A stretch of DNA of 64,000 bases from Corynebacterium sp. P4-C1. GTDB taxonomy: Bacteria > Actinomycetota > Actinomycetes > Mycobacteriales > Mycobacteriaceae. Below the pieces are notes generated by a model, which worked only from the letters and a program-made list of their open reading frames with translations, was not told where the DNA came from and did not search any database. Made by a program: the position numbers and the translations under genes. The DNA is taken from NCBI RefSeq assembly GCF_030503595.1, contig NZ_CP129966.1, forward strand, positions 868,001 through 932,000, in the 5' to 3' direction. Shown in pieces: positions 14,472 through 60,866 of the stretch (its first letter is position 1; the number at the start of each line of letters is the position of its first letter).

Positions 14472-15560
14472 TTAGGTTACGTTGAACTTGAACTCGACGA
14501 CATCACCATCAGCCATGACGTAGTCCTTGCCCTCCTGGCGGACCTTGCCGTTCGCGCGGGCTTCGGCCATTGAGCCGAGCTCGTCGAGGTCGTCGAAGGC
14601 GACGACTTCGGCCTTGATGAAACCCTTCTCAAAGTCGGTGTGGATGACACCGGCAGCCTTGGGTGCGGTGTCGCCCTTGTGAATGGTCCAGGCGCGGGAC
14701 TCCTTGGGGCCGGCGGTGAGGTAGGTCTGGAGGCCGAGGGTTTCGAAGCCGGCGCGGGCGAGCGTCGATAAGCCGGGCTCGTCTTGGCCCACAGCGGCGA
14801 GGAGCTCTGCGGCGTCCTCTTCCTCGAGCTCGAGAAGCTCGGTCTCCGTCTGGGCATCGAGGAAGACGGCCTCGGCGGGAGCGACGAGCTCACGCAGCTC
14901 CGCTTTCTTGGCGTCGTCGGTGAGGACGCCCTCGTCGGAGTTGAACACGTAGAGGAAGGGCTTCGCCGTCATCAGGTGCAGGTCGCGCAGCAGGGAGAGG
15001 TCGATCTCACCGGCCTTGGACGCTGCGAAGAGAGTTGTGTCGTTCTCCAGCACCTCCTGCGCCTTCTTGGCCTCCTCAGCCTGCGCGGCGGTGTCCTTGT
15101 CCTTGCGGCCGTCCTTCTCCAAGCGCGGCAGGGCCTTCTCAATGGTCTGGAGGTCGGCGAGGATCAGCTCGGTGTTGATGACCGAAATGTCGTTGGCCGG
15201 GTCGACCTTGCCATCGACGTGAATGACATTGTCGTCGGAGAATGCGCGCACAACCTGGCAGATCGCGTCAGCCTCGCGGATATTGGCGAGGAAGGCGTTG
15301 CCCATGCCCTCGCCCTCGGAAGCACCTTTCACGATGCCGGCGATGTCCACGAACGACACCGTCGCAGGAAGGATCTCGGCGGACCCGAAAATCTCCGCGA
15401 GGCGGTCGAGGCGCTTGTCCGGCAGCGGCACCAGGCCGACATTCGGCTCGATGGTGGCGAACGGGTAGTTGGCCGCCAGGACCTCGTTACGGGTCAACGC
15501 GTTGAACAAGGTGGATTTGCCCACGTTGGGCAGACCGACGATTCCAAGAGTAAGGCTCAC
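14472..15560 (-). CDS. ychF: redox-regulated ATPase YchF (Obg-like)
   Basis: An Obg-family P-loop protein of 362 aa that binds ATP rather than GTP and associates with ribosomes. P-loop GLPNVGKSTLF at residues 8-18, switch region VDIAGIVKGASEGEGMGN, an altered NKxD position (FNSDE), a helical coiled-coil insert, and a C-terminal TGS domain ending VVEFKFNV. GTG at 15560 gives the usual MSLTLGIVG start; a TTG three codons upstream is possible. No strong RBS is seen. The length matches the family (about 361). It marks the return to conserved backbone synteny. Confidence 0.95.
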   Translation of the reverse strand: MSLTLGIVGLPNVGKSTLFNALTRNEVLAANYPFATIEPNVGLVPLPDKRLDRLAEIFGSAEILPATVSFVDIAGIVKGASEGEGMGNAFLANIREADAICQVVRAFSDDNVIHVDGKVDPANDISVINTELILADLQTIEKALPRLEKDGRKDKDTAAQAEEAKKAQEVLENDTTLFAASKAGEIDLSLLRDLHLMTAKPFLYVFNSDEGVLTDDAKKAELRELVAPAEAVFLDAQTETELLELEEEDAAELLAAVGQDEPGLSTLARAGFETLGLQTYLTAGPKESRAWTIHKGDTAPKAAGVIHTDFEKGFIKAEVVAFDDLDELGSMAEARANGKVRQEGKDYVMADGDVVEFKFNVT

Positions 15561-15646
15561 GGTGGCCAATGATAACGCACGCCCTGGCCACCCAGAGCGA
15601 GGGGCGGACGGGGCGTGGGAGTCGGGCTGTGTTCAGTCTTCGCGTT

Positions 15647-17131
15647 CTACAGCTGAATACCGAACTGCGCCGCGAGATCGCGCAGCTGCGGCACCTGTGC
15701 GGCAGCGTTGCGCAGCTGCGGCACCTGTGCGGCAGCGTTGCGCAGCTGCGGCGCAGCCAACGCCGCACCGCCGATCAGGCCGAGCAGCACTGCAACACCG
15801 ATGCCGATGCCGATGGCAGTTCCGTTGGTCGAGGACGCCTTGTTGGCACCGGCACTGCCGTTGTCGCTCGAGGAGCTGCCGGACGAAGCGGGGTCATCCC
15901 CCGCGCCCGGCTTGACGGTGCCCGGCTTGGGGCGGTCGGTGTTGGTCTTGTCGAGGGGTGAATTCGTCGACAAGCGAATTATCCGCGACGTTGAACGTGC
16001 TCATGGTCAGCTTGTCCTTGGTCACGTCGACGACGGCATAGTCCGGGGTCTTGTCCTGGCGCCAGATCGCGATCTCCTTGGCCTGCAGGTCCGTCCCCTC
16101 GGTCTGGGAGCGGTCGGTGTACTCGGGGTGCTTGGTGCCGTCTGCGCTGTGGAAGTCGTAGTACTTGCCGCCGCCGGCAGTCGTGATGGTGTCATACATG
16201 ACCTCCCCCGCCTTCGGCTTCAGCACGTCGCCCGGCTCGGGGCGCGCCTCCGGGACGGTCGGTGTCAGGCCGTTGATGAGGTGCGTGCGGTTGTACATAT
16301 GGTCGTGGCCAGACATGACCATATCCACGCCCGCATCCGAGAACACCGGCGCGAGGCCCTCGCGGAGCTTCTTCACATCCGCGTCCGTCGTGCCGTGCGA
16401 GCCCTGCGTGTACGGCGCGTGGTGCATGACGGCGATGATCCAATCCTTGCCGCCGCCGTGCTGTGCGACAGTGTTGCGTACGAAGTCGGCGTGGTTGCGG
16501 ATATCGGCGCTGCTGCTCTGATTGGAGTCGAGCACGACGAACAGCGCGTTATTGCGCTCGAAGAAGTAGTTGGCGCTGGCGCCCTGCTGGTTCGGGAAGT
16601 TGCGGTGCTCGTCGAAGTGCTTATCCGGTGCGTAGGTCTCGTGGTTGCCCTTGGACATCGCGACCGGGTAGCGCTTCGGTTCGTCGGCGGAGAAGAAGGC
16701 TTCCCACTGTGTGACCGGATCGCCCCAGCCTTCGACCTGGTCGCCAGAGTGCAGGACGAAGGATGAATCGGGGCGGGCGCAGTGGTGGCCTTCACTGCGG
16801 AGCGCCGCGCCTCTGCCTGGTCGCTCACGCGCAGATCGACGCCGATCTGGGCGTCGGAAAAATCGAGGAAGGACCAGTTATCACCGGTGGTCTGCACACG
16901 GAAGGTCTGCGCGCTTTCCGGCTGGCCCGCCGGGTAGTACTTCACGTACTCCGCGCCGCGGAAATCGGTGCGCCAGGAGAAATTCATGTCCGTGGAGGTG
17001 GCACCGACACCGATGTGGCTGACGGCACCAGGGCCGGCGACGAAGGAGGACTGCGCGGCGGCATCTGGGACAGCAGCGGCGGAGAAGGCCACCGCCAGCG
17101 TTGTGGTCGCGGTGGTGCAGCGGAAAGTCAT
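15647..17131 (-). pseudogene. secreted metallophosphoesterase with C-terminal anchor, two offsetting frameshifts
   Basis: A purple-acid-phosphatase-like surface enzyme. Signal peptide in residues 1-26, then a fibronectin-like N domain (NFSWRTD, VKYYPAG). The frame shifts at CCCGCCCCGAT (complement of 16767-16777). The catalytic core follows with SGDQVEGWGD, GNHETY, VVLDSNQ, MHHAPYTQG and SGHDHMYNRTH, the metal-binding motifs of this superfamily. A second shift in a G-run at 15955-15958 restores the original frame, giving a Ser/Gly-rich linker, a membrane helix (IGIGIGVAVLLGLIGGA) and a repeat tail. One lost and one gained base would restore an intact gene of about 494 aa, so it may be whole in the organism. 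Confidence 0.78.
15681..15753 (-). repeat. 30-bp tandem repeat encoding a 10-residue repeat
   Basis: The 30-base unit beginning CGCAGCTGCGGCACCTGTGC occurs at 15681-15710 and identically at 15711-15740, with a 13-base partial third copy to 15753. It encodes QLRNAAAQVP-type repeats in the tail behind the membrane helix of the metallophosphoesterase. Identity at DNA level indicates recent expansion. Confidence 0.9.
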
Positions 17132-17386
17132 TCGTAGTCTTCTAGCTGTTCTAAATGCGGAAATTGGAAATCATGTCGCGGATCTGCGGTTGGAAATGAA
17201 CCGCGCCAGCAGCAGATTCCAGTCGCATCTCATGCTTCGTTTCCAAGGGGTTCAGGAAGCTTTGGAAGGGAAAAGACAGGGGCCACTGCGTCCGAGCGCA
17301 AGAATGTAATACGGGTCACGTTGGGTCGCTCGTCGAAAAGCGATGCGCGAACCCGTGGCTCCTGGCAAGCGTATTAAGGCACAATA
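17132..17386. other. divergent intergenic region
   Basis: 255 bases between the metallophosphoesterase start and the AI-2E family gene. A CACAAT -10-like box at 17380-17385 sits directly before the GTG codons of the right-hand gene and would suit a leaderless transcript. No other gene or repeat is evident. Confidence 0.35.
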
Positions 17387-18889
17387 GTGCGCGTGAGTTC
17401 TGCACTGAATGGCCCGGATTCGGGCAAGGATCCCGCCGCCGACGGCAGTGCGCGCGATGCGCAGGCGCTGGCCGAGGAAGTCAAAGCGTCGGACGCGAAG
17501 TCCGCCGGGTCCCGCGCCGTGCACGAGTACGGCAACCGCGTCGACCGCTCCGTGATCGTGAACTCGTGGCTGAAGAACATGGCGCAGTTCTCCCTGCGCA
17601 TGCTCATCATCGTGGTGCTGCTCGGCGCGGCGTTCTACTTGGTGGGCAAATTCTGGGCGGGCGTGCTGCCCGTTGTTCTGGCGTTGATCGTGTGCACGGT
17701 GCTGTCCCCCATCACGAATTTCATGCGCCGGCACAAAGTCCCCAGCGGGCTGGCGGCGATGATGTCGCTGCTCGTGTTCTTCGGCGTGCTGGTCTTCTTC
17801 GTGGCCATCATCCTTCCGGACATCCTGCGCAATTCGCGCGTCCTTGTCATTCAGGCCGGGCAGGGTGTGCAGGGGTTGCAGTTGTGGCTCCAGAACCAGG
17901 AGTCGCTGCCGTTCGACGTGGACGCGGAGCAGGTGGACAGCATCGTCCAGGACATCGCGACATGGATGCAGAACAAGGCCGGGGCGATCGCCGGCGGCAT
18001 CTTCAGCGGCATCAGCACGGCCACATCGATGTCGATCACGCTCGTCGTGGTCGTGGTCCTGACCTTCTTCTTCCTCAAGGACGGCCCGAAATTCCTGCCG
18101 TGGGTCCGCAGCGCCACCGGCGGCCGCGCGGGCCTGCACGCGACGGAGCTGCTCACGCGCACATGGGACACGCTCGGCGGGTACGTCCGGGCACAAGCGC
18201 TCGTTTCGCTTATCGACGCCGTCTGCATCGGCTTCGGCATCTACCTCGTCGGAGTCCCGATGGCGTTCACCCTGGCCGTGATCACGTTCATGGCCGGGTT
18301 CATTCCCCTCGTGGGTGCGATAGTCGCCGGCGCACTCGCAGTGCTGATCGCGCTCGTCTCCCTCGGCTTTACCAAGGCACTGATTGTCCTAGCTATCGTC
18401 ATCGGCGTGCAGCAGTTGGAGGGCAACATTCTCTCCCCGCTGCTCCAGTCCCGCGCGATGAACCTGCACCCAGTGATCGTGCTGGTCTCCGTCACTGTCG
18501 GCGGCGGTCTCTTCGGCCTCGTCGGCGCGTTCTTGGCAGTCCCCGTCGCTGCCACCGTGGCCGTGGTCTTCCGTTACGCCCAGGACATCTTGCGCCTCCA
18601 CGCCGGCGAAGTCAGCGCCAGCGACCTGACTTTCTCCACCGATGTCGGTCGCGCACTCGCCGAAGCCGAAGAGCGCGAGAGCAACGACGCCCGCGACGAA
18701 CTCATGTCCCAGCACCCGTGGACTCCGCCCGCCGTCGAGGAGGAGACGAACGTCGCCCCTGAACCGCGCACGGCCCCCGGCTCGACCCTGGTCAAGCAGG
18801 TACGCGCGATCAATCTCCGGCCGCGCAAGGAATGGAAGATCGAAAATTTGTTCGGCTCGCGCAAGGATGGCGGGGACGACGTGTCCTAG
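17387..18889 (+). CDS. AI-2E family transporter (TqsA/PerM-like)
   Basis: A polytopic membrane protein of 500 aa with the AI-2E transporter architecture: about 60 hydrophilic N-terminal residues, helices at roughly 65-95 and 115-140, a soluble loop, then a helical block with the conserved GxxxPxxGPxxG-like MAFTLAVITFMAGFIPLVGA and VQQLEGNILSPLL. The last 100 residues are charged and cytosolic. Family members range from autoinducer exporters to Na+/H+ antiporters, so the substrate cannot be given. GTG 17387 is used; GTG 17393 two codons on is equally likely if the transcript is leaderless. Confidence 0.88.
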   Translation: MRVSSALNGPDSGKDPAADGSARDAQALAEEVKASDAKSAGSRAVHEYGNRVDRSVIVNSWLKNMAQFSLRMLIIVVLLGAAFYLVGKFWAGVLPVVLALIVCTVLSPITNFMRRHKVPSGLAAMMSLLVFFGVLVFFVAIILPDILRNSRVLVIQAGQGVQGLQLWLQNQESLPFDVDAEQVDSIVQDIATWMQNKAGAIAGGIFSGISTATSMSITLVVVVVLTFFFLKDGPKFLPWVRSATGGRAGLHATELLTRTWDTLGGYVRAQALVSLIDAVCIGFGIYLVGVPMAFTLAVITFMAGFIPLVGAIVAGALAVLIALVSLGFTKALIVLAIVIGVQQLEGNILSPLLQSRAMNLHPVIVLVSVTVGGGLFGLVGAFLAVPVAATVAVVFRYAQDILRLHAGEVSASDLTFSTDVGRALAEAEERESNDARDELMSQHPWTPPAVEEETNVAPEPRTAPGSTLVKQVRAINLRPRKEWKIENLFGSRKDGGDDVS

Positions 18890-18910: not shown

Positions 18911-20032
18911 ATGAGCACCCCCACTGCTATCGCCCTCTTCGTTGTCGTCGCAATCCTCGCTTTTCTGGCCGGGGCATTCGTCGGTGCCGCCTACCAGTCG
19001 GTCAGGCAGGAGCAGCGCCGCCCCGCCCAACCCCCGGCGGCCCCCGATACCGGGCAGCAGCGGGAACTGGACCGCCTCGGCCACACCATGGAGCAGCTCT
19101 CCGCCCAGCTGCGGGAAATGGACGAGGACCGTGCCGTGGCCTATTCAGCGCTGGCAGGGCAGGTGCAGGCAGTCACGAGAGCATCGGCACGCCTCGGCGA
19201 CCGGACCGACCAACTCGTCGCCGCGCTGCGCTCCCCCAACACCCGCGGACGATGGGGCGAGATGCAGCTCGAGCGCGTCGTGGAACTCGGCGGAATGACC
19301 CGGTACTGCGATTTCGATGTCCAAGCCACCGCGTCAATCGACGGGCAGATGGTGCGCCCCGACATGGTGATCCGGCTCAGCCGCGGCCGCAACATCGTCG
19401 TCGACGCGAAAGTCCCCTTCGGCGCCTACCTCGACGCGCTCAGCACCGAGGACCCGGAGGAGAAACAGGGCTACCTGCGCCGGCACAGCCACCTGGTGCG
19501 GAGCCATGTGGCGACGTTGGCGTCGAAAAGCTATGTGGAGGCGTTCTCCCCCACCCCGGAATTCGTCGTGATGTTCATGCCCGCGGACCCGTTCCTCGAC
19601 GCCGCGCTCGAGCAGGACCCGGAGCTGCTCGACTTCGCCTTCGACCGCGGGGTTGTGCTGGCAACGCCCACCACACTCTTCGCGCTGCTGCGCACCGTCG
19701 GCCTCGGCTGGCAGCAGGAAACCGCCGCCGAAAAAGCCCACGAAGTCCAGCGCCTCGGCGCGCAGCTGTACACGCGGCTGGGCACGATGGCCGAGCATTA
19801 CAACCGTCTCGGCACCTCCCTCGACAAAGCGGTGGAGGCGTTCAACGCCACCCTTGGGTCCATGGACTCGCGTGTCATGGTCACAGCGCGTCGGTTAAAG
19901 GACCTGGATGTTCCCGCGCATTCCTCCTCCGCACCCACGACTTTGAACCCGGTGTCCACGCGCACACGCACCGCCGTCCCCGGCCCCGAGCACGATTCGG
20001 CTGGCGCACTCCCCGAAGAAAAATGGGGGTAG
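18911..20032 (+). CDS. rmuC: RmuC family DNA recombination protein
   Basis: About 373 aa. An N-terminal membrane helix (residues 4-26), then a Gln/Arg-rich coiled coil (about 35-110) and the RmuC nuclease-like domain with GRWGEMQLERVVELGGM, IVVDAKVPF, EFVVMFMPADPFL and LFALLRTVGLGWQQE. RmuC proteins limit recombination at inverted repeats in E. coli; the enzymology is poorly known. ATG 18911 follows an AGGTGAGGGG stretch; a GTG three codons upstream is an alternative. It stands 21 bases after the AI-2E gene and may be co-transcribed. Confidence 0.88.
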   Translation: MSTPTAIALFVVVAILAFLAGAFVGAAYQSVRQEQRRPAQPPAAPDTGQQRELDRLGHTMEQLSAQLREMDEDRAVAYSALAGQVQAVTRASARLGDRTDQLVAALRSPNTRGRWGEMQLERVVELGGMTRYCDFDVQATASIDGQMVRPDMVIRLSRGRNIVVDAKVPFGAYLDALSTEDPEEKQGYLRRHSHLVRSHVATLASKSYVEAFSPTPEFVVMFMPADPFLDAALEQDPELLDFAFDRGVVLATPTTLFALLRTVGLGWQQETAAEKAHEVQRLGAQLYTRLGTMAEHYNRLGTSLDKAVEAFNATLGSMDSRVMVTARRLKDLDVPAHSSSAPTTLNPVSTRTRTAVPGPEHDSAGALPEEKWG

Positions 20033-21824: not shown

Positions 21825-23072
21825 TTGTCAGGACAACCACCGAAGAGCACACCGGAAACTCCGTGGTCGGTCTCGCAGGTCAACCAGACAGTCAAGCAAT
21901 GGATCGAAAGGCTGGGCTGGCTGTGGATCGAGGGGCAGCTCACGCAGGTCAACATCAAGCCGACGTGGAAGCTGTCGTATTTGACGTTGCGCGACACCCA
22001 GGAGCAGATGAGCCTGCAGCTCACCGCGTCGACGGAGTTGCTCCGCAGCATGCCGACGCAGCTGAAAGACGGCGACCATGTAGTGGTGCGCGGCAAGCCC
22101 GCGTTCTACGCTGGCCGCGGATCGTTCTCGATGTGGGTCACGGAAATCCGCCACGTGGGCGAAGGCGAGCTGCTAGCCAAGATTGAACAGTTGCGGAAGA
22201 TGCTCGCGGCGGAAGGGCTTTTCGACGTCTCCCGCAAGCGACCCCTGCCCTACCTGCCCACCAAGGTCGGCCTGATCACCGGCCGCGGTTCCGCCGCCGA
22301 GCGGGATGTCCTCTCCGTGGCTAAAGACCGCTGGCCGGCGGTCGACTTCCGCGTCATCAACACCGCCGTCCAGGGGGCCAACGCCGTCCCGGAAGTCATC
22401 GATGCGCTCAAGCTTCTCGACGCCGACCCAGACGTCGACGTCATCATCATTGCCCGCGGCGGCGGCTCGGTGGAGGACCTCCTGCCCTTCTCCGAGGAAG
22501 CCCTCCAGCGCGCCGTGTCCGCCGCACAGACCCCTGTGGTCTCCGCGATCGGCCACGAACCCGATAACCCCGTGCTGGACAATGTCGCCGACCTGCGCGC
22601 CGCCACCCCGACGGATGCCGCCAAGCGCGTCGTCCCCGATGTCGCCGCCGAGCTCGAACTCCTCTCCGAGGCCCGCTCTCGCATGGCCGCCGCCTTGCGC
22701 GGGTGGGTGCACCGCGAGCGTGAAGGCTTGCGCCAAGTGCGTTCCCGGCCTGTGATGGCGAATCCGCTCACCCCGATCGAGCAGCGCCGAGAGGAACTCG
22801 ACCGCGCACGGGCGTCCATCCGCCGCGACATCACCCGGCTCGTGGCCGTCGAACAGTCCGAGGTCCGCGGTCTCCGCGCCCAGGTCTCCGCCCTTGGCCC
22901 GTCCGCGACTCTCGCCCGCGGCTACGCCGTCGTCCAGGTCCAGCCCCGCGACGGCACCGAGGCCCAGGTGGTCACCAGCATCGAGCAGGCGCCACCGGGA
23001 TCCCAACTGCGTATCCGCGTCGGCGACGGCTCCATCACCGCCGCCGGAATGTCCACCACACCCGCCGAATAA
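21825..23072 (+). CDS. xseA: exodeoxyribonuclease VII large subunit
   Basis: The catalytic subunit of ExoVII, which degrades single-stranded DNA. The N-terminal OB fold (residues 20-120) includes WIEGQLTQ and [11 protein letters not shown]. The catalytic domain has [33 protein letters not shown] and [27 protein letters not shown], followed by a long coiled coil and [16 protein letters not shown] 21825 is chosen because AAGGGGG (21810-21816) lies nine bases upstream; a TTG at 21804 is the alternative. It is divergent from ispH with about 77 bases between. xseB follows after 35 bases. Confidence 0.94.
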
Positions 23073-23107: not shown

Positions 23108-23374
23108 ATGGCAGAGAACACCTACGGACAAGGCACTCCCAACGACGACGCATTCCCCGACCCCGAAACCCTCACCTACGAGCAAGCGCGCGACGAGCTC
23201 GTCGAGACGGTCAAGATTCTCGAGCTCGGCCAAATGAGCCTCGACGAATCCCTCAAATACTGGGAGCGCGGCGAAGCCCTCGCCAAGCGCTGCGAAGTGC
23301 TTCTCGACGGCGCCCAGAAGCGCGTCGAGACCGCACTCGGCGCCGGTGAGGCCAGTGGCGGTGAGGAAGAATAG
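23108..23374 (+). CDS. xseB: exodeoxyribonuclease VII small subunit
   Basis: An 88-aa helical hairpin subunit of ExoVII that coats the XseA coiled coil. Family features: [38 protein letters not shown] in two parts and a C-terminal acidic tail. RBS AGGAG precedes the ATG. Same operon as xseA. Confidence 0.94.
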
Positions 23375-23456: not shown

Positions 23457-24031
23457 GTCGCCGGCAGCGGCTCCGTGGCGACCGTCGTCGCGAGCAGCTC
23501 GCGGAACTCGTCCTCCCTTGCTTCGCCCTTCACCAGAAGGCGCACATCCCCCAGATCGACGACCCACACATCGCGGACATCGGCTTCAGGCGACGAGTAG
23601 ATGGTGGCCTCGAGGCTCTGGGCATCGTCGATAAGCGCGGTGCCCGTCTTCTCGCGGGGCGAGGAATCGACGCGTTCGACGGCAGTCTCGACATCCGCGC
23701 CGGTCTGCGTGAGCTGCAGGTAGCCCTCCTTTGGGGTCACCCACCCCACGACGGGTGCCGGGTCCTCGCCGACCGTCGTGCGGCGCGCCGAGTTGTTCAC
23801 CCAGCCCTCCGGCATCCGCGGGAAACGCACCGGGAATTTCACCGCGCGCGCCTCCATTCCCATGAACGTGGCACCGTCCACCTCTTGGACTGGGCCGTTT
23901 TCCGGGCGCCCCGGATTGAAACTGCACATGCCAGTGAAGCCGACTGCGCCGACCATCAGCAGGACAATGACGATGACGTTGATGGTCATGTCCTTGCCGT
24001 CCTGGAAAATCCGGGGTTTCTCCTTAGCCAC
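23453..24031 (-). CDS. DUF4245 domain protein
   Basis: A membrane-anchored protein of 192 aa. Residues 1-15 are cytosolic, one helix spans about 17-36, and the rest is an external domain with VRFPRMPEGWVNNSARR, GWVTPKEGYLQLTQT and LLVKGEAREDEFREL. This is the DUF4245 pattern, which precedes glpX in corynebacteria and mycobacteria. Function unknown. Divergent from glpX. Confidence 0.85.
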   Translation of the reverse strand: MAKEKPRIFQDGKDMTINVIVIVLLMVGAVGFTGMCSFNPGRPENGPVQEVDGATFMGMEARAVKFPVRFPRMPEGWVNNSARRTTVGEDPAPVVGWVTPKEGYLQLTQTGADVETAVERVDSSPREKTGTALIDDAQSLEATIYSSPEADVRDVWVVDLGDVRLLVKGEAREDEFRELLATTVATEPLPAT

Positions 24032-26776: not shown

Positions 26777-26808
26777 GACCCTGGCAGGCCTTCTGCCAGG
26801 GTCTTTTT
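26777..26808 (+). terminator. rho-independent terminator of fumC
   Basis: Perfect 11-bp stem GACCCTGGCAG (26777-26787) with CTGCCAGGGTC (26793-26803), loop GCCTT, followed by TTTTT (26804-26808). A textbook intrinsic terminator 69 bases after the fumC stop. Confidence 0.93.
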
Positions 26809-26838
26809 GGTGCGCGGCGAACGTCGATAAGCGCGATC

Positions 26839-26874: not shown

Positions 26875-27486
26875 GTGGAACGCGAGAAAAAGCGGAGGGA
26901 AACCCGCGCAAGGATCGTGGAAAGCGCGACGGAACTCGTCGAAAAGCACGGCTTCGACAACGTCACCGTCGAGGACATCTGCGCACAAGCCGGAATCTCC
27001 CGGCGGACATTCTTCAACTACATGGACAGCAAAGACGAGGCAGTCCTCGGGCCCGCGCCTCTGACTGTCACCGACGACGCGCTGCGGCGCATCGCCGTGA
27101 CGCAAGCCGACAACCTCGTCGAGCTGATCATCTCGGAGACCAGCTTGCCCGACGCAGAGAACTTCGACTTCGCCGGCATTGAACGCCGCCGCGCCATTTT
27201 CGCCACCAACTCATCCTTGGCAAGCCTCGCTCTCGCGCGCCGCCGCACCACCCTGACCGCTATCGGCGGGGCACTGGAAGAACACTTCGAGCGCTTCCCC
27301 TCCGACCGTCTCGCCCCCGACCACCCCGCCCACGCCGAAATTCAGGCGATCATCGAAATCGTCCAGAGCGCCGTGAGCACCACCGCTTTCAACCCCGAAT
27401 TTTCCGATCCCGACCGCGACGCGCGTGACAACGTGCGCGGCGCCGCAGTCTTCATCACCGACATCGCAAGGAGACTCGAATGGTAG
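26875..27486 (+). CDS. TetR family transcriptional regulator
   Basis: A protein of 203 aa with an N-terminal TetR HTH: RARIVESATELVEKHGFDNVTVEDICAQAGISRRTFFNYM in sections (about residues 10-50). The C-terminal ligand domain is not closely recognisable. The start GTG 26875 is chosen from the promoter position; an upstream in-frame ATG/ATT region lacks an RBS. Its stop overlaps the start of the MFS gene by seven bases, so it almost certainly controls this efflux pump. The ligand is unknown. Confidence 0.88.
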   Translation: MEREKKRRETRARIVESATELVEKHGFDNVTVEDICAQAGISRRTFFNYMDSKDEAVLGPAPLTVTDDALRRIAVTQADNLVELIISETSLPDAENFDFAGIERRRAIFATNSSLASLALARRRTTLTAIGGALEEHFERFPSDRLAPDHPAHAEIQAIIEIVQSAVSTTAFNPEFSDPDRDARDNVRGAAVFITDIARRLEW

Positions 27487-35300: not shown

Positions 35301-35322
35301 TGCGCGTGCTTATCGACGCCCC

Positions 35323-40228: not shown

Positions 40229-40472
40229 GCCCCAAACCATAAACCCCCACCCCACCCACCAACAGACCCCCAACCCACACCTGTGGATAACCCAAGAACC
40301 ACAAGGTCAACGGCATGTGGAAAAACGAAAAAGAAGGCCTCGGTACCGACAAACTGTGCAAGTACCAGGCCGAGGGAATGTGGAAACCAGCGTTGGAAGC
40401 GTCGATAAGCATGCAAAAGGCCCGCACGAGACGTACGGGCCTTGTGTACCGCTTGGACGCGGGTGGTGAAGA
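40229..40472. other. intergenic region with DnaA-box-like site
   Basis: A 244-base gap. It contains a perfect TGTGGATAA (DnaA-box consensus, 40282-40290), a bulged hairpin around 40338-40375, one copy of the GCGTCGATAAGC word (40399-40410) and the terminator of the next gene. A single DnaA box is not an origin. Confidence 0.5.
40417..40443 (-). terminator. rho-independent terminator of the Bax-inhibitor-like gene
   Basis: On the minus strand AAGGCCCG (complement of 40436-40443) pairs with CGGGCCTT (complement of 40417-40424), loop 11 bases, followed by TT to make a T-run of four. It lies 30 bases after the stop of the gene at 40473. Confidence 0.8.
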
Positions 40473-49300: not shown

Positions 49301-50007
49301 GCTTTGACGGCATCGTCGATAAGCAATTGGCGCGCGGGATGCAGCTCGACGCGCGCGATGTCTTCGATGGTGCGCTGGTCCGCAACCGCGAATGTGCGCA
49401 GGTCAGTAACCTCGTCGCCCCAGAACTCGATGCGCACCGGGTGCTCGGCCGTCGTCGGGAACACATCGATGATGCCGCCGCGGGTGGCGAATTCCCCGCG
49501 GCCGGAGACCATGTCGACGTGCTCGTACGCGAAACTCGTCAATGATGCGGCGAGCTCCTCGAAGTCGTATTCCTCGCCGTGTGCAACCTCAATCGGCGCC
49601 ACCGCCGGCAGCACCGGCTGGCACATAGCGCGCGCGGAAGCCACCACGACCGACGTCTCCGCGAGCCCGTGCAGCACCTGATTCCGCTTGCCGACGATGT
49701 CCGCGGCGGGCGACAGACGCTCGTGCGGCAACGTCTCGAACGCCGGCATCAACGCCACCCGCTCATCACCGAGCAACGCCGAGAGTTCGGCGGCGAGATC
49801 CTCGGCCTCGTGCCCAGTCGCAGTGACGAGCAGCACCGGCACGGTGCGCGCGATCGTCGCCGCCGCCCACGGACGCACCTGGTCAATGCCGGTGACGTGC
49901 AGCGACGGCTCCCCCACCCGTTTGCTCAGACCCTTCAACTTCGGATCCGTCATCGCCTGGGTCAGCACCCCGGCGAGCATCGGCACATTCTGCGGCTGGT
50001 CAGCCAT
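46363..50007 (-). CDS. mfd: transcription-repair coupling factor
   Basis: Removes stalled RNA polymerase and recruits UvrA. 1214 aa. N-terminal UvrB-like region (LMPAFETLPHERLSP, VASARAMCQPVLP), RNA-polymerase interaction domain (LKPGDYVVHDTHGIGRF), then the translocase with GDVGFGKTEVAVRAAFKA, LVPTTLLAQQHFSTF, VDEEQRFGVEHK, MTATPIPRTLEMSLTG and GRVGRSRERGYAYFLYP, and the C-terminal TRCF domain. ATG 50007 has AGGGGG upstream and gives MADQPQN; the longer frame through the tRNA is not used. Confidence 0.97.
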   Translation of the reverse strand: MADQPQNVPMLAGVLTQAMTDPKLKGLSKRVGEPSLHVTGIDQVRPWAAATIARTVPVLLVTATGHEAEDLAAELSALLGDERVALMPAFETLPHERLSPAADIVGKRNQVLHGLAETSVVVASARAMCQPVLPAVAPIEVAHGEEYDFEELAASLTSFAYEHVDMVSGRGEFATRGGIIDVFPTTAEHPVRIEFWGDEVTDLRTFAVADQRTIEDIARVELHPARQLLIDDAVKASAASLAEAHPGNRTLVELLTRISDGTHADGMEALIPALTGAPYAVLPELMPEGSVVLVTSPEKVRTRISDLQATDQEFLEAGWEAAAMGADGPVAAEGLDVSASSYRSFESLEVSAREAGNAWWTFAPPGMFAAGEDDEATLPLEFEAAPAPKGDPKQIEALYGQVKMHLKNGGRAAFTAPAKGTVDRMAERLRENGISARVATAGLEPVDGQVTLYQALSHAGLTFPGPGLVVFTETDVTGNRVGDIAGAKRRAPRRRNRVDPLALKPGDYVVHDTHGIGRFVKMAERTIGTGEDSSRREYIVLEYQPAKRGQPADQLWVPMESLDLLSKYSGGEQPSLSKMGGSDWKNTKKKARAAVREIAGELVQLYAKRASAPGHAFAPDSPWQIEMEDNFPFVETEDQMAAIEAVKADMEKPTPMDRVIVGDVGFGKTEVAVRAAFKAVQDGKQVAVLVPTTLLAQQHFSTFSQRMDGFGVDVKELSRFTTGADAKKIMAGLADGSVDIVIGTHRLLQTGVQWKNLGLIIVDEEQRFGVEHKEHIKALKSHVDVLTMTATPIPRTLEMSLTGIREMTSITTPPEDRHPVLTYVGPQEDKQVAAAIRRELLRDGQVFYIHNKVSDIEKTARHLRTLVPEARIVVAHGQMGEQLLEQTVQGFWNRDFDVLVCTTIVETGLDIANANTLIVENAQNMGLSQLHQLRGRVGRSRERGYAYFLYPKDKVLTETSYDRLATIAQNNDLGAGIAVAQKDLEMRGAGNVLGAEQSGHIAGVGFDMYVRLVGEAVETYKALMSGDVVDATDQGPKEIRIDLPVDAHIPETYINSERLRLESYRKLAAARDDAELSHVAEELVDRFGEMPEEVERLFAVARLRHQARRAGVADITMQGTRLKVHPVDMPDSKQVRLKRLYPGSNYRAAAKAVQVPFPREGGAKKALNAPNLRDEELLQWIADFLSEMFDVEKVSVRGAGIDKPAKKRVVSVSE

Positions 50008-51663: not shown

Positions 51664-53169
51664 CTAGTGCCGCCCGGTGTGCTTCTCCAGCGCGGGCTGC
51701 TGACCGGGTTCGACAATGACGTACTGGCCCATCATTCCCTGGTCTTCGTGGTAGAGCATGTGGCAGTGGTACATGTACGCCAGGGTGGGGTCCGGGTGGT
51801 AGCCGAATTCCACGAGCAAGGTCACCGTCGTTTGTGGAGGCACGAAAATCGTGTCGTGCCAGCCCTGGGTGAACGCAACGGCCCCGCCGTCGACGGACTC
51901 CACCGTGAACCGCGCGTTGTGGATGTGGAAGTTGTGCGGCCAGTCCGCGTTCTCATTGGTCACCCGCCAGATCTCGGGGCCGGAGTGGTCGACGACGACG
52001 TCGACGCGTTCCATGTCCATTGTCTGCCCGTTGATCTCGAATCCACTCAGCGCGAACTCGCGCTCGACTGCGCCGGAAGCGTCAGGCTTATCGACGCCCA
52101 CCAGCGTCCCCGGCACCTCCCCCACCTCCGGGGTGTTCTCATCGGGGCCAGTGATCTTCACTAGGTCGAAGGTATCCCGGAGGCCGAAACCGTTGGCTAC
52201 CTCTTCCTTGGGGAGACCGCCGCCGTCGGGGACGCCGTCGCTACGCAGCATGAGGTCCTCGCCGGGCTCGAGGTCGACGAGGATCTCGGCGCGTTCGCCG
52301 GGGCTGAGCAGGATACTGTCGACCTCCACCGGTTCGCTCAACAGTCCTTGGTCGGTGGCGATGACGTGGAAGGGCTTCCCCACGACAAGGTTGTGGAAGC
52401 GCATCGTCGCACCGTTGACCAAGCGCAGACGGACCCGGCGCGTGGTTGCGGTGAACTGCGGCTTGGTGATGCCGTTGATGAGCGGAGTGGTCCCTAGCAG
52501 CCCGTAGTCGGGGTCGAAAGTCGAGTCCAGGCTGGCGTCCGCGCGGAACTTGGCGTCGGTGATGATGACGGGAATGTCGTCGACGCCATAGTCGTGGGGC
52601 AACTCGAGGGCGTCGGATTCGTCGTCCGCGACGATCAGGCCGCCAGCGAGACCCCGGTAGGCGTGCAGTCCGGAGACATTGTGCGGGTGCGGATGATACC
52701 AGCAGGTCGATGCCGGCTGGTCCATGTCCCAGGACGGTTCCCAGGACGTGCCCGGGTCGAACATGAGCGCGGGTCCGCCGTCGGCGGCCGCCGGCAGGTG
52801 GAGGCCGTGCCAGTGCACGACGGTGGGCTCGGTCACCTCGTTGTTGACCTTCATCTCGATGTGCTCGCCGCGGCGCATGTACAGCGTGGGGCCGAGCCAC
52901 GCACCGTTGAAGCCCCACGTGTCGGTCATCTTGCCCGGCAGGATTTCAGTCTGTCCCGCCTGCGCGGTGAGCTCGAAGCGGCGGGTGCCACCCTCCAGCT
53001 CGCCTTCGTACAGCTCCGGCACCGGCAGGTCGCGGTACTCCTCTTTCGCACCCTCGGGCGCGGTCTGACGGAAACGGACACCACCCGGTCCTGCGCAGGC
53101 GGTCGCCGTCGCCGCCGTGGCGAGCAGCATGCCCTTGAAGAACGTGCGCCGTCCGAATTCCCGTTTCAT
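51664..53169 (-). CDS. multicopper oxidase family protein, Tat-exported
   Basis: 501 aa. Tat motif FGRRTFFKG with TATAC lipobox-like end (about residue 25). Three cupredoxin domains; copper ligands HWHGLHLP, CWYHPHPH, WPHNFHIHN and HCHMLYHEDQGMM are complete, so it should be active. CotA/CueO-type enzymes oxidise Cu(I), metals or phenols. It follows its paralogue by 52 bases on the same strand with AGGAGAAC before the ATG. The pair lies in backbone DNA, separate from the copper island. Confidence 0.92.
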   Translation of the reverse strand: MKREFGRRTFFKGMLLATAATATACAGPGGVRFRQTAPEGAKEEYRDLPVPELYEGELEGGTRRFELTAQAGQTEILPGKMTDTWGFNGAWLGPTLYMRRGEHIEMKVNNEVTEPTVVHWHGLHLPAAADGGPALMFDPGTSWEPSWDMDQPASTCWYHPHPHNVSGLHAYRGLAGGLIVADDESDALELPHDYGVDDIPVIITDAKFRADASLDSTFDPDYGLLGTTPLINGITKPQFTATTRRVRLRLVNGATMRFHNLVVGKPFHVIATDQGLLSEPVEVDSILLSPGERAEILVDLEPGEDLMLRSDGVPDGGGLPKEEVANGFGLRDTFDLVKITGPDENTPEVGEVPGTLVGVDKPDASGAVEREFALSGFEINGQTMDMERVDVVVDHSGPEIWRVTNENADWPHNFHIHNARFTVESVDGGAVAFTQGWHDTIFVPPQTTVTLLVEFGYHPDPTLAYMYHCHMLYHEDQGMMGQYVIVEPGQQPALEKHTGRH

Positions 53170-53221: not shown

Positions 53222-54601
53222 CTAGTGCGAATGGCTCTGGAGTTCCGGCTTCTGCCCCGGTTCGACGATGACGAACTGCCCCATCATTCCGTGGTCCTCG
53301 TGGTTGAGCATGTGGCAGTGGTACATGTACGCCAAGGTCGGGTCCGGGTAGTAGCCGAAGTCGACGTGCAGGGTGACCGTCGCGAGCGGCGGAACATTGA
53401 TCGTGTCGTGCCAGCCCGCACTGAAGTCGATGCGGCCGTTCTCGACGTCGGTGACCAGAAAGCGCGCGTCGTGCACGTGGAAATTGTGCAGCTTGGCGGC
53501 ATTCTCGTTCGTGACTTTCCAGATCTCAGGACCGCGGTGGTCCACCACCTCGTCTACACGCGACATGTCCATCTGCTTGCCGTTGATCTCCATGTCCTTC
53601 AAACGGAATTCACGCTGGACGGTGGCCTTCTCGGGCTCCTCAAATTCGATGAGTGTCTCCGGTAGCGGCGGGAACGCGGGCGCTTCTTCCGGCGGCGCAC
53701 CGATCGCGAGCACGTCGAAGAGGTCGGTGACACCGAAGGTCTGCGCGGTTTCTTCGTCGGGCAGGTCGGCGAAGCGCGGCAGACCGTCACTGCGCAACGC
53801 GAGATCCTTTCCGGGCTCGAGATCCACGACGATCTCCACACGCTCGCCGGAAGTGAGCAAGATCGATTCCGCTTCCACCGGAGTTTCCAGCAGTCCTTGA
53901 TCGGTGGCGACGATCTGGAAGGGAACCCCGAGCGTGAGATTCAAAAATCGCATCGTCGACCCATTGAGGATGCGCAGGCGTAATCGCCGGGTCGTCGCCT
54001 CAAAGCGCGGACTGGTGATCCCGTTGACGATCAAGGTGTCGCCGAGCCAACCGTCGTCGGCGTTGAGCTGGCCGTCGTCGTCGAAATTCGCGTCTCTAAT
54101 CAACACCGGGATGTCGTCCACCCCGTAACGGGAGGGCAAGCCGGGGATGCCGGCGGTGGTGGTGTCGTCGTCAAGCACGATGGCGCCGACGAGCCCGCGG
54201 TACGCCTGGATCGCGGATTCGCCGTGGGGGTGCGGGTGGTACCAGCACGTCGACGCAGGCTGTTCGACGGTCCACGACGGCGACCACGACTCGCCCGGAT
54301 CGAACATGAGCGCCGGTCCCCCGTCTGCCGTGACCGGCAGGTGGAGACCGTGCCAGTGGACAACAGTAGGATCGGGCAGCTCATTGTGCACCGTCATGTC
54401 GATCTGTTCCTCGCGCCGCATGTACAGCGTCGGACCGAGGAACGGCCCATTGAAACCCCACGTCTTCGTCGTCGTGCCCGGCAGGATTTCGTATTCGCCT
54501 TCCTGCGCGGTCAGCTCGAAGCGGCGGACATTGCCGTCGAGTGTCCCTTCATACAGCGGCGGGATCGGCAGCGATCGTGTCGAATCTGTTGCGCCGGTCA
54601 T
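53222..54601 (-). CDS. multicopper oxidase family protein without signal peptide
   Basis: 459 aa. Paralogue of the next gene: shared PPLYEGTLDGNVRRFELTAQ, TWGFNGPFLGPTLYMRR, VVHWHGLHLP, CWYHPHPHGES, KLHNFHVHD and HCHMLNHEDHGMM. All copper ligands are intact. ATG 54601 is the only start close to homology; residues 1-12 contain no Tat or Sec signal, and the sequence upstream belongs to the divergent MFS gene. Unless a start was missed, the product stays in the cytosol, unusual for the family. Confidence 0.88.
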   Translation of the reverse strand: MTGATDSTRSLPIPPLYEGTLDGNVRRFELTAQEGEYEILPGTTTKTWGFNGPFLGPTLYMRREEQIDMTVHNELPDPTVVHWHGLHLPVTADGGPALMFDPGESWSPSWTVEQPASTCWYHPHPHGESAIQAYRGLVGAIVLDDDTTTAGIPGLPSRYGVDDIPVLIRDANFDDDGQLNADDGWLGDTLIVNGITSPRFEATTRRLRLRILNGSTMRFLNLTLGVPFQIVATDQGLLETPVEAESILLTSGERVEIVVDLEPGKDLALRSDGLPRFADLPDEETAQTFGVTDLFDVLAIGAPPEEAPAFPPLPETLIEFEEPEKATVQREFRLKDMEINGKQMDMSRVDEVVDHRGPEIWKVTNENAAKLHNFHVHDARFLVTDVENGRIDFSAGWHDTINVPPLATVTLHVDFGYYPDPTLAYMYHCHMLNHEDHGMMGQFVIVEPGQKPELQSHSH

Positions 54602-55943: not shown

Positions 55944-57413
55944 GTGCCAACTAATTCCGAGTGCGCCGTCGTCGTTTTGGCGGCCGGTGCCGGAACCCGC
56001 ATGAAGTCGACGACGCAGAAGACCCTCCACGAAATCGGCGGGCGCAGCCTCTTGTCGCATTCGCTGCACGCGGCCGCCGGGATCTCCCCCGCCCACCTCG
56101 TCGCCGTGGTCGGCCACCAGCGCGACCAGGTCTCCCCGGCCGTGGACGGCATCGCCGAGGACATGCAGGTAACCATCCTCCAGGCCGTCCAGGAGGAGCA
56201 GAATGGCACCGGCCACGCCGTGCAGGTCGGCTTGGGCGCCATCCCCGATTTCAACGGAACTGTCGTGGTCACCAATGGCGATGTGCCGCTGCTGCGGACG
56301 GAGACGATCGAGGCGCTCGTCGATAAGCATGAAAGCGCGCAGGCCGCTGTAACTGTGCTGTCCCTGGAATTCGAGGACCCGACGGGCTACGGGCGCATCA
56401 TCCGCGACAGCGACGGCAACGTGCGCGAAATCGTCGAGGAAAAGGACGCGAACGACGAACAGCGCGCGGTCACCGAGGTCAACTCCGGTGTCTTCGCTTT
56501 CGACGGCGCTGTACTGCGTGATGCGCTGACCCGCATCAACTCCGATAACGCGCAGGGTGAGCTGTACATCACCGACGTGCTCGGCATCGCGGTGAACGAC
56601 GGCCGGACCGTCACTGCGTTCACCGCCCCCGACGCGCGGGAGCTCGCCGGCGTCAACGACCGCGTGCAGCTCGCCGCCGCCGGCAAGGAACTCAACCGCC
56701 GCCTCGTCGAGCGCGCCATGCGCGGCGGCGCCACCATCGTCGACCCTGACACCACCTGGATTGGCGTCGACGTGGAAATCGGCCAGGACGTCACCATCCA
56801 CCCGAACACCCAGCTGTGGGGCTCCACCGTGATCGGCGACGGCGCCGTCGTCGGCCCCGACACCACCCTGACCGACTTCGAGGTCGGGACCCGCGCCTCC
56901 GTTGTGCGCACCCACGGCGAACTCGGCGTCGTCGGCGAAGAAGCCGCCGTGGGCCCGTTTACCTACATCCGCCCGGGCACCACCCTCGGCGCACGCGGCA
57001 AGCTCGGCGGCTTCGTCGAGGCCAAGAACGCGCAGATCGGCGACGGCTCGAAGGTGCCCCACCTGACCTACATCGGCGACGCGACCGTAGGCCGTGAATC
57101 GAATATCGGCGCCTCCAGCGTCTTCGTCAACTACGACGGCGTGAACAAGCACCGCACCACCATCGGCGACCACTGCCGCACAGGCTCCGACACCATGTTC
57201 GTCGCTCCCGTCACGGTCGGCGATGGGGCGTACACCGGCGCAGGTACAGTAGTGACTAAAGATGTGCCCGCCGGCGCCCTCGCCGTCAAGGAAGGACACC
57301 AGCGCAACATCGAAGGCTGGGTGGAGAAGAACCGCCCCGGCACGGACGCGGCCGAAGCCTCCCAGCGCGCACGCGAGAGTGAACTGAAAGGTGACACCAC
57401 CAATGACCGGTAA
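55944..57413 (+). CDS. glmU: bifunctional UDP-GlcNAc pyrophosphorylase / GlcN-1-P acetyltransferase
   Basis: Makes UDP-GlcNAc for peptidoglycan. 489 aa. Uridyltransferase domain with [38 protein letters not shown] and [10 protein letters not shown]; left-handed beta-helix acetyltransferase domain from about residue 255 with hexapeptide repeats, [17 protein letters not shown] and [15 protein letters not shown]. Start GTG with AAGGAG upstream. Overlaps prs by eleven bases. Confidence 0.96.
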
Positions 57414-58480: not shown

Positions 58481-58527
58481 CTCGTTTTCGAGCGGTGTGC
58501 GCGCGCCCTCGCATAAACTTCGCAAAC

Positions 58528-59904
58528 ATGGTTTCACCGAAAGTAGCAACCGCACCGCTTATCGACGGCCCCTCCCTCACCTCCGAACGCCGCCGCGTGG
58601 TAGCAGCCACGACGGTGGGCACTGCCATCGAGTGGTACGACTTCTTCCTTTACGCCGCCACCGCCGGCTTGGTGTTCAAAGCCGCGATATTCACCCCGCT
58701 GGGCCCGGCCGGCGGAACTTTATTCGCATTCCTCACCGTCGGACTGTCGTTCCTGTTCCGCCCGCTCGGCGCGTTTTTGGCGGGGCATTTCGCGGACAAG
58801 CTCGGCCGCCGCGCGGTCCTCATGGTGACACTGTTGGCGATGGGCGGCGCCACCACTCTGATCGGCCTGCTCCCCACCTACGAGACGATCGGCGTCCTCT
58901 CCCCTGTCTTGCTCGTCCTGCTGCGCCTGGTGCAGGGCATTTCCGCCGGCGGCGAGTGGGGCTCGGCTGTCCTGCTGGCCGTCGAGCACGCCCCGGACGG
59001 CAAACGCGGACTCTTCGGCGCGAGTCCGCAGATCGGCGCCCCGGCTGGCCTGCTGCTATCGTCCGGGGCGCTGTATCTGATGAATATCATCGCCCCGGGC
59101 GACGCCTTCCTCGAGTGGGGGTGGCGCGTACCGTTCCTCTTCTCCGCCTTGCTGGTCCTGCTCGGCTGGTGGGTGCGTAAGGGAGTGGATGAATCACCGG
59201 TGTACGAGGAAATGGCGGAGATTTCCTCCAACCAGACATCCAATCCAATCGGAACCCTGTTCCGGAACTACACCCCCGTTGTCATCGCTGGCGCTCTACT
59301 CTTCGCCGCGAATAGCGTTCTGGGATATATGACCACCGGCGGGTACATCCAGAACTACACCACCGATCCGGACGGAATGGCCCTCGACCGTGGCCCGATT
59401 CTTTTCGCCGTCACCGTCGCCGGCGCGGTGTGGATGGTCTCCACGTTCTTCACCGGCTGGCTCTCCGACCGGCTCGGGCGAAAGACCACCCTCGTTGGAG
59501 GTTTTGTCGTTCAGATCGTAGCCGCTCTCGTTCTTTTCCCGCTGGTGAACACGGCGGACATGGGAAAGATCTACGTCGCCCTAATCTTCCTCGCTCTCGC
59601 GCTCGGCTTCACTTACGGACAGATTGCAGCACTGTATGCCGAGCTTTTCCCCGCATCGGTCCGCGCGTCAGGCACGTCGATCACCTACGCCATCGGCGCG
59701 ATCCTCGGCGGCGCATTCACTCCGTTCATTGCATCCTGGATCTACGAGGCCACTGGCTCATCGTGGGGCATCACCACCTACCTGGTCGGCGCGAGTGTCA
59801 TCGGACTCGCCGTGGCTGTGTGTCTCCGGGAGCGCGCGGACATTCCGCTCGACCCTAGCAACGAACACGTGCAGCGCACCGGCCATTTCATCTGGCAACG
59901 CTAG
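58528..59904 (+). CDS. MFS transporter, metabolite:H+ symporter (MHS) family
   Basis: 458 aa, 12 helices. MHS family marks: TAIEWYDFFLYAATAGLVF, GHFADKLGRRAVLMVTLL, GISAGGEWGSAVLLAVEHAP and a motif-A repeat GWLSDRLGRKTTLVGG. Relatives such as ShiA, KgtP and ProP import shikimate, 2-oxoglutarate or betaine; the exact substrate is unclear. ATG 58528 follows a TAAACT box by nine bases. Confidence 0.88.
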   Translation: MVSPKVATAPLIDGPSLTSERRRVVAATTVGTAIEWYDFFLYAATAGLVFKAAIFTPLGPAGGTLFAFLTVGLSFLFRPLGAFLAGHFADKLGRRAVLMVTLLAMGGATTLIGLLPTYETIGVLSPVLLVLLRLVQGISAGGEWGSAVLLAVEHAPDGKRGLFGASPQIGAPAGLLLSSGALYLMNIIAPGDAFLEWGWRVPFLFSALLVLLGWWVRKGVDESPVYEEMAEISSNQTSNPIGTLFRNYTPVVIAGALLFAANSVLGYMTTGGYIQNYTTDPDGMALDRGPILFAVTVAGAVWMVSTFFTGWLSDRLGRKTTLVGGFVVQIVAALVLFPLVNTADMGKIYVALIFLALALGFTYGQIAALYAELFPASVRASGTSITYAIGAILGGAFTPFIASWIYEATGSSWGITTYLVGASVIGLAVAVCLRERADIPLDPSNEHVQRTGHFIWQR

Positions 59905-60027: not shown

Positions 60028-60074
60028 AAAAAGCCTGCGGTCACTCGACGAGCACACGTGGCCGCAGGCTTTTT
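60028..60074 (+). terminator. intrinsic terminator or attenuator upstream of rplY
   Basis: AAAAAGCCTGCGG (60028-60040) pairs perfectly with CCGCAGGCTTTTT (60062-60074), 13 bp, with a 21-base loop and a T-run inside the 3' arm. It ends 44 bases before the rplY start. A promoter-like pair TTGGTC (59909-59914) and TAATCT (59933-59938 region) lies upstream, so this may close a leader RNA rather than the MHS gene. Confidence 0.75.
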
Positions 60075-60118
60075 CTGTGGCTCATCGAACCTACGCATCA
60101 CTAGAAGGAGAAAGCATC

Positions 60119-60781
60119 ATGGCGAATAAGTTCCCGACTATCCAGGCTGAGAAGCGCGATGAGTTCGGCAAGGGCTCCGCTCGCCGTCTGCGCGCCGCTG
60201 GCCGCGTCCCGGGCGTCCTGTACAGCAACGGCGAGGACAACCTCCACTTCCACGTGGACATCCTCGAGATCACCGCTCTCGTGCGCAACGACGGCACCAA
60301 CGCCATTCTCGAGCTCGAGGTTGACGGCGACAAGAACCTCGCGATGGTTAAGCACGTCGACCAGAACGTCCTGACCCTGAACATCGACCACATCGACCTC
60401 TTCGGCGTCAAGCGCGGCGAGAAGGTCACCGTCGAGGTTCCGGTCATCTACGAGGGCGAGGCCGCCCCGGACGCTGTGATTCTCCAGGAGATCGACGTTG
60501 TCGAGATCGAGGTCGACGCTCTGAACATTCCAGACGAGATCGTCGTGTCCATCGAGGGCAAGGAGATCGGCGACCAGATCTTCGCCAGCGACCTGCCGCT
60601 GCCGGAGGGTTCCGAGCTGATCACCGATCCGGAGCAGCTGGCGATCAACGTCACCTACGAGCAGGTTGACGAGGAGCTCGAGTCTGAGGCTGAGGACGCT
60701 GAGGAAGGCGGAGCCGAGGCTGGCGCCGACTCCGAGGAGGGCGCAGAGGAGGGCGAGTCCGAGGACGACTCCGAGGAGTAA
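60119..60781 (+). CDS. rplY: 50S ribosomal protein L25/general stress protein Ctc
   Basis: Binds 5S rRNA. 220 aa. N-terminal L25 domain (EFGKGSARRLRAAGRVPGVLY in two parts, FHVDILEITALV), C-terminal TL5 domain (VPVIYEGEAAPDAVILQEID, ADLNIP-like ALNIPDEIVVSIEG) and a 40-residue Glu/Asp-rich tail. RBS AGAAGGAG at 60103-60110. Confidence 0.96.
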   Translation: MANKFPTIQAEKRDEFGKGSARRLRAAGRVPGVLYSNGEDNLHFHVDILEITALVRNDGTNAILELEVDGDKNLAMVKHVDQNVLTLNIDHIDLFGVKRGEKVTVEVPVIYEGEAAPDAVILQEIDVVEIEVDALNIPDEIVVSIEGKEIGDQIFASDLPLPEGSELITDPEQLAINVTYEQVDEELESEAEDAEEGGAEAGADSEEGAEEGESEDDSEE

Positions 60782-60866
60782 GCCTTCGCTTATCGACGCC
60801 CGCGTCTTAACGGCCGGCGACCCCACCACGGGGTTACCGGCCGTTTATTCATTTATTCTGGTGTGC

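Follow-up and report, generated by a model that had tools for sequence, protein, structure and literature searches.

A dispersed core-and-tract DNA element with dialects in Corynebacterium, possibly a DNA uptake sequence

The DNA analysed here, hereafter the window, is a stretch of 64,000 nucleotides from Corynebacterium sp. P4-C1 (contig NZ_CP129966.1, positions 868,001 to 932,000), which begins with a 14.4-kb copper island and beyond it carries many copies of a short, non-palindromic word, lying between genes as well as within them, among others those for serine hydroxymethyltransferase, Mfd, and a multicopper oxidase. The 10-mer GTCGATAAGC occurs 14 times in exact form in the window, 8 times on the forward and 6 times on the reverse strand, compared with a mean of 0.08 and a maximum of 1 in 100 dinucleotide shuffles. 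Eight of these copies extend to the full 12-mer GCGTCGATAAGC, and five (26822, 35308, 37958, 40400, and 60788) are intergenic according to the simple gene calls made in this analysis. An earlier note on this DNA had counted the same 14 and eight copies, five of them in gaps and in both orientations, and is borne out in each of these points. The excess, which that note proposed to follow over the whole genome, indeed holds there: the genome containing the window (G000; 2,313,418 bases in a single contig) has 252 forward and 249 reverse copies, 501 altogether, versus 2 + 3 = 5 copies of the reversed word used as control, and another genome of this species contains 250 forward and 253 reverse copies.

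To define the unit, we used a sample made up of the window and 20 spaced stretches (464 kb, about one fifth of G000). The conserved unit is the 11-mer CGTCGATAAGC, the perfect core, with 123 copies observed versus 1.9 expected under an order-4 Markov model, and the leading G of the 12-mer is found in just 43 of these 123 sites. Furthermore, the two centre bases are variable, as CGTCG-NN-AAGC with AA, GC, AC, AG, TC, or TA at its centre is in each case well above expectation in the same sample. The true unit is CGTCG-NN-AAGC with two free centre bases; of the earlier proposal, the over-represented word stands, while the 12-mer as its unit does not. The relaxed core, CGTCGNNAAGC, recurs about once per 1.6 kb, and CRTCGNNAAGC, which comprises CGTCG-NN-AAGC and a CATCG variant, amounts to 1399 copies in G000, versus 98 for the control. 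The earlier note has neither this degenerate centre nor the features described below, namely the tract rich in G, the spread across the genus, and the dialects.

On the same strand, the core is directly preceded on its 5' side by a tract of some 35 nt that is rich in G and poor in C. Over 610 pooled sites, taken from G000, four other genomes, and 17 named loci, positions -33 to -1 have a mean G of about 0.45 and a mean C of about 0.22, compared with backgrounds of about 0.33 and 0.32. In bins of three bases, G ranges from 0.39 to 0.50 and C from 0.19 to 0.29, the bias fades by -36, and the 3' flank of the core has no such tract. The tract lies beside intergenic (21), sense (41), and antisense (61) sites alike, which together make up the 123 perfect cores of the sample, and also beside variant cores. 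Within genes, the tract consists of G at free codon positions, giving an apparent period of three that likely follows from the genetic code. An RNA element such as a Rho site, suggested by the C-rich, G-poor complement of the tract, was rejected, as the tract is present at both gene orientations and at intergenic sites.

In the window, coordinates of a site cover the 11-nt core and 36 nt of its 5' flank. The first perfect core, 14763-14773 (site 14727..14773, +), has a 36-nt 5' tract and lies in the gene 14472-15560(-). Next come genic cores at 18208-18218 (18208..18254, -), with a weak tract, and 23626-23636 (23590..23636, +), with a tract, and an intergenic core at 26822-26832 (26786..26832, +), with a modest one. 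All remaining perfect cores have a tract. Those at 32474-32484 (32438..32484, +), 33029-33039 (33029..33075, -; within the serine hydroxymethyltransferase gene), 49314-49324 (49278..49324, +; within mfd), and 52086-52096 (52086..52132, -; within a multicopper oxidase gene) are genic, and those at 35308-35318 (35308..35354, -), 37958-37968 (37922..37968, +), 40400-40410 (40364..40410, +), and 60788-60798 (60788..60834, -) are intergenic; at 56318-56328 (56282..56328, +), the coding strand is uncertain, and the core at 58557-58567 (58557..58603, -) is close to the start of the gene 58528-59904(+). Variant cores with a tract have the centre AA (17295..17341, +; 22217..22263, -; 31989..32035, -; 33962..34008, +; 38580..38626, -; 44696..44742, -), GC (35514..35560, 47766..47812, and 61720..61766, all +), TT (43658..43704, +; 48277..48323, -), AC (15929..15975, +), AG (22412..22458, -), TG (28892..28938, -), CG (47442..47488, +), or TC (54130..54176, +). 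The tract is modest at 19485..19531 (+, AA) and weak at 23299..23345 (-, AG), 26901..26947 (+, AA), 62086..62132 (+, GC), 63446..63492 (+, TA), and 27695..27741 (-, CC), the last of which may be due to chance, as may two sites with no G excess at 30271..30317 (+, AG) and 49686..49732 (-, GC).

Genic cores are confined almost entirely to two reading frames, Val-Asp-Lys (33 of 123) and Leu-Ile-Asp (54 of 123). Codon usage would lead one to expect 4.4 of the 96 Leu-Ile-Asp tripeptides to be written CTTATCGAC and 4.7 of the 57 Val-Asp-Lys tripeptides to be written GTCGATAAG, whereas 54 and 35, respectively, are. When codons were shuffled synonymously within genes (60 shuffles), the 100 perfect genic cores fell to a mean of 4.25 (maximum 7) and the 258 relaxed ones to a mean of 25.7 (maximum 35), and the flanks of the surviving cores had a G/C of 0.37/0.30, versus 0.47/0.21 before shuffling. 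Since about 4 of 100 genic copies are left by such shuffling, codon bias is no explanation, and a single codon-pair bias, which the earlier note had named as what might account for the excess, is ruled out. The element is kept by selection on the DNA itself, overriding codon choice in G000, the genome to which our results on strand polarity and on the copper island likewise pertain. When genes are divided into fifths by how typical their codon usage is, word density is lowest in the most typical one (0.46/kb, compared with 0.57-0.80 in the others), as would be expected if the word costs codon quality. In an alignment with C. urinipleomorphum, which by Mfd is the nearest named relative that was found (95% over its best segment), 9 of 13 alignable window sites are kept, versus 0.23 for random positions, and the corresponding figures for five more distant species are 19 of 50 versus 0.13-0.17, on a small number of sites and with core identity higher than that of the flank in three of six comparisons and lower in the other three.

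With the origin placed by the GC skew of the sample near 1.65 Mb and the terminus near 0.46 Mb, the perfect core is split 61 to 62 and the relaxed core 136 to 150 between leading and lagging strand. Relaxed genic sites are antisense in 184 and sense in 74 cases, an excess likely due to the freer Leu-X-Asp frame. Spacing of sites is slightly more even than random (coefficient of variation 0.92 versus 1.005, with 57 of 1000 shuffles as low). None of the 38 relaxed cores of the window falls in its first 14.4 kb, where 8.55 would be expected; the corresponding chance of about 6e-5 is limited by the island boundary, which is that of the earlier note and was drawn knowing the word positions. The absence of the word from the island, observed before, is reproduced and extends to the relaxed core. 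Nine island proteins were scanned, among them two P-type ATPases, of which one has a heavy-metal domain, and a pair of proteins forming a two-component system, a content as expected of a metal island. About 37 kb from this word-free island, two adjacent CueO/FtsP-like multicopper oxidase genes are encoded on the minus strand (51664-53169 and 53222-55675), the first of which contains a perfect word.

Counts across the genus establish the element, its copy number, and its dialects beyond a single genome. Among 151 genomes of the family, representing 31 genera, GTCGATAAGC is high only in Corynebacterium, the highest count elsewhere being 15; in the comparison with related species suggested in the earlier note, high counts are thus limited to this genus. 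If a genome is called word-bearing when its CRTCGNNAAGC count is at least 3x that of the reversed control, 189 of 242 Corynebacterium genomes are so (180 at >=5x control), with a median of 1121 copies, and 53 of 242 are below 3x; where a genome has more than 500 copies, its forward and reverse counts are within 16% of each other. Seventeen of the 189 owe most of their count to CATCGNNAAGC, which defines a T dialect (CATCG-NN-AAGC), and the same holds for G301, whose total is just under the threshold (2.98x control). The tract accompanies the word in many Corynebacterium genomes, and T-dialect sites have it as well (G 0.41, C 0.22, background 0.29; 97 sites). Among named loci (about 24 kb each, one of 14 kb), 17 of 20 from Corynebacterium have 5-19 relaxed cores, those of C. 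uropygiale, C. ulceribovis, and strain zg-331 have 0-1, and one locus each of Rhodococcus, Nocardia, and Mycobacterium, taken from 60 non-Corynebacterium loci, has 0-2. On a quick Mfd tree of 30 genomes chosen to cover the word states and three outgroups, with support from the Shimodaira-Hasegawa-like approximate likelihood-ratio test (SH-aLRT) only, the four word states need 5 changes, compared with a mean of 13.9 after shuffling; the CRTCG word versus none needs 3, and C versus T dialect needs 1, the C-to-T change occurring once with five T-dialect genomes included. Word-bearing genomes are found on either side of the deepest split of this tree. The Mfd of G177 sits on a very long branch, its N-terminal part being 44% and its C-terminal part 73% identical.

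One genome, G160, possesses a private and unrelated word, ATGACGYCGCG, in 329 + 315 = 644 copies in 2.0 Mb, compared with no more than 26 in any of 62 other Corynebacterium genomes tested; its flanks show a preference for T at -2 (33 of 46) and for G at +13 (31 of 46). In samples of 80 kb from each of 12 word-less genomes, no dispersed word reached the strength of the one in G000 (24 copies versus 0.07 expected); weaker dispersed words are present in those of G348 (75% GC), G371, and G381. The samples of G371 and G381 show a weak excess of words containing GGCGTCG, possibly another faint dialect in otherwise word-less genomes.

Genes for transformation are established in the same genomes, with ComEC in 241 and a Flp-type pilin (DUF4244) in 238 of the 242 Corynebacterium genomes. 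In G000, ComEA (an SLBB domain just below the family cut-off and a helix-hairpin-helix) is encoded directly before ComEC, and a Tad locus encodes the pilin along with an ATPase and two T2SSF proteins, as well as a product whose TadE/G-like match is weak and falls below cut-off. A helicase with MrfA zinc-binding and HRQ1 winged-helix domains adjoins this Tad locus on the opposite strand (L095:5694-8069). Two adjacent large PDDEXK proteins, which in G000 correspond to frames of 1069 and 1098 aa and are labelled AdnAB-like from their size and PDDEXK domain only, occur in 32 of 32 Corynebacterium genomes tested. This gene content does not decide between an uptake sequence and a signal resembling Chi, because word-less genomes, too, contain the parts for both mechanisms. 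Of 13 word-less genomes, nine have weak Tad T2SSF scores or none, which likely reflects clade divergence, because AdnA-like scores fall in the same nine (as well as in G160, with its own word, and in the word-bearing G214). G315, having neither a T2SSF nor a pilin match, yet carries 1594 words; its TadA match starts 240 bases from a contig end, and the missing T2SSF and pilin matches are likely due to an assembly gap. Word counts are intermediate in G328 (284; no ComEC match) and G301 (277; no pilin match), and other genomes with intermediate counts have no gap in ComEC or pilin.

An orientation-free, asymmetric, and codon-overriding element, with dialects that follow the tree and missing from relatives that keep the machinery, fits self-recognition better than a chromosome-mechanical signal, and we infer that in a genus keeping Tad, ComEA, and ComEC the simplest such signal is a DNA uptake sequence. 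We thus favour, with a probability of about 0.45, that the element works as a self-tag preferred by the Tad pilus/ComEA/ComEC machinery, by which DNA would be taken up. Of the four candidates offered in the earlier note, an uptake-like sequence fits best because of the hundreds of copies on both strands, the dialects, the absence from the copper island, and the competence genes, whereas a mobile mini-repeat is rejected and a KOPS-like segregation site is not supported, as detailed below. As in known uptake sequences, the word of G000 is high in copy number (501 versus 5; 1399 versus 98) and balanced in orientation (252 versus 249), its dialects follow the tree, and its host has transformation genes, which word-less genomes also have. 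The more specific proposal, in which tract and CGTCG-NN-AAGC form a two-part tag, spread over the genus in dialects and read by a Tad/Flp pilus with ComEA/ComEC in a naturally transforming, species-discriminating genus, as the first sequence-specific uptake system of Gram-positives, we put forward tentatively, at somewhat short of an even chance. In such a model, Corynebacterium cells would take up DNA whose core would be read by a surface or pilus protein, the tract would aid binding or strand opening (melting), one strand being C-poor and hard to fold, and copies would accumulate as tagged fragments would be imported and recombined more often.

This proposal is reminiscent of two known systems. 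The uptake signal sequence (USS) of Pasteurellaceae, AAGTGCGGT, likewise combines a core with a biased flank; USS flanks are A/T tracts, whereas that of Corynebacterium is G-rich, C-poor, about 35 nt long, and 5' of the core. Its abundance is similar, with about 1300 copies in H. influenzae, where terminator-forming pairs, not seen for the Corynebacterium word, are common according to the passages on this species in PMC5217627. The DNA uptake sequence (DUS) of Neisseriaceae, GCCGTCTGAA, is also a short non-palindromic word of hundreds to thousands of copies (as given in passages of PMC6370729 and PMC3630211), and its dialects, in the account given in parts of PMC3630211, follow the species tree as those of Corynebacterium do. 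Here, in contrast, the phylum is a different one, the pilus would be of Tad/Flp type rather than a type IV pilus with the minor pilin ComP, uptake is proposed from sequence, and the word has a free two-base centre, a long one-sided G-rich tract, and no intergenic concentration. In another actinobacterium, Micrococcus luteus, Flp/Tad pili are needed for transformation, as stated in a section of a 2019 review (PMC6370729), which in the sections concerned describes the Neisseria system as the only one with an identified DNA receptor, ComP, and mentions no actinobacterial uptake sequence.

Several observations weigh against an uptake sequence. ComEC and the pilin gene are present in word-less genomes too and do not predict the word, no receptor for it was identified in this analysis, and no natural transformation of Corynebacterium was found among the matches listed from the open PubMed Central (PMC) literature. 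At 84 sites from the deep clade of G155, the tract is weak (G 0.36, C 0.29, background 0.30), and the private word of G160 lacks it. Inverted terminator pairs are not a feature of the word, only 21 of 123 perfect sites being intergenic, and neighbours separated by less than 100 bp, whatever their orientation, are fewer than expected at random (8 versus 17). Moreover, genes whose codon usage is atypical are not poorer in words (0.66/kb in the fifth furthest from typical, versus 0.46 in the most typical one), so that depletion from foreign DNA rests on one island.

Alternatively, though we regard this as rather unlikely, the element could be a Chi-like signal, in which an AdnAB-type helicase-nuclease would read the core as a single strand and stop degrading, and RecA would load on the unstructured, G-rich tract. 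Like the Chi of RecBCD and AddAB, the element is an over-represented, oriented word in a G-rich neighbourhood; the Chi sites of E. coli are located within G/T-rich islands that RecA favours, the AdnAB-like pair is present in all 32 Corynebacterium genomes tested, and the one-sided tract sits on the 5' side, where a 3' tail would form and RecA would load. Known Chi sites are 5-8 bases long and polar with replication, whereas nine specified bases plus a 35-nt tract are long for Chi, the centre is degenerate, and neither perfect (61 versus 62) nor relaxed cores (136 versus 150) show polarity. In addition, 13 of 13 word-less genomes tested keep the AdnAB-like pair, and an unrelated private word in G160 is odd for a shared enzyme. 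A Chi-like signal thus explains the one-sided tract well but expects a polarity that is absent and leaves the word-less AdnAB-like genomes unexplained.

We consider it unlikely that the word is a non-polar site bound across the genome by a protein that organises the chromosome (nucleoid, SMC-like, or topoisomerase); the even orientation, the copies in and between genes, one relaxed copy per about 1.6 kb, and the slightly regular spacing would suit such a site, but 53 of 242 genomes of the genus are below 3x control and the sampled related genera are without the word, unexpected for a core chromosome function, and the dialect change, the private word, and the absence from the copper island speak against it as well. 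Segregation words such as FtsK-orienting polar sequences (KOPS) and architecture-imparting sequences (AIMS), likewise dispersed and G-rich, are polar from origin to terminus, unlike the Corynebacterium word with its 61 leading and 62 lagging copies, and this reading is not supported. Less probable still, the word could mark DNA as self for a defence or plasmid-exclusion system, which would attack word-free DNA: many backbone copies, none in the island, and a patchy spread over species are in line with it, but words used by restriction systems are usually avoided rather than enriched, and nothing ties the word to a defence gene here, where no search for defence systems was made. A mobile mini-repeat was rejected, as flanks show only a composition bias of at most 0.66 bits per column (123 sites) and variant cores share the tract, and likeness to a DnaA box (TTATCGAC) was rejected as the two centre bases vary. 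Finally, an origin of the excess in chance, or as a side effect of codon or codon-pair bias, is refuted by the synonymous shuffles (4.25 versus 100) and so improbable as to be negligible, even though 87 of 123 copies fall in the two frames Val-Asp-Lys and Leu-Ile-Asp, as 21 of 123 copies are intergenic, the tract flanks copies in both gene orientations and between genes, and the 30 other genera of the family carry 0-15 copies.

Should the element indeed be an uptake tag, it would, to our knowledge and in the open literature searched, be the first outside Gram-negative bacteria. Most Corynebacterium species, including commensals of skin and mucosa and pathogens, would then swap genes by tagged natural transformation, dialects would act as barriers between species, and uptake of specific sequences would have arisen outside Gram-negatives with a different pilus. 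If instead it were the Chi of AdnAB, it would settle whether AdnAB has one. Either way, the element is over-represented in 189 of 242 genomes and in G000 rewrites synonymous codons at hundreds of places, the word is a ready probe for a receptor, and the dialects provide a natural series for testing it. No description of the word was found in the open PMC literature, subscription papers and preprints being outside this scope, and none of the listed open PMC matches for the word strings is about genome words by title or abstract. In a motif scan of 569 genomes, the Corynebacterium matches given in the relevant part of PMC5217627 are CRISPR repeats.

Two further repeats were noticed in samples of 80 kb. 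The word-less G368 contains a clustered AT-rich word, TTTTGCAGAGT, with 11 copies in 4 bins, and G155 contains a repeat with CGTGAGCGGGGATGTTCC-like units in 13 copies, which is probably a CRISPR array.

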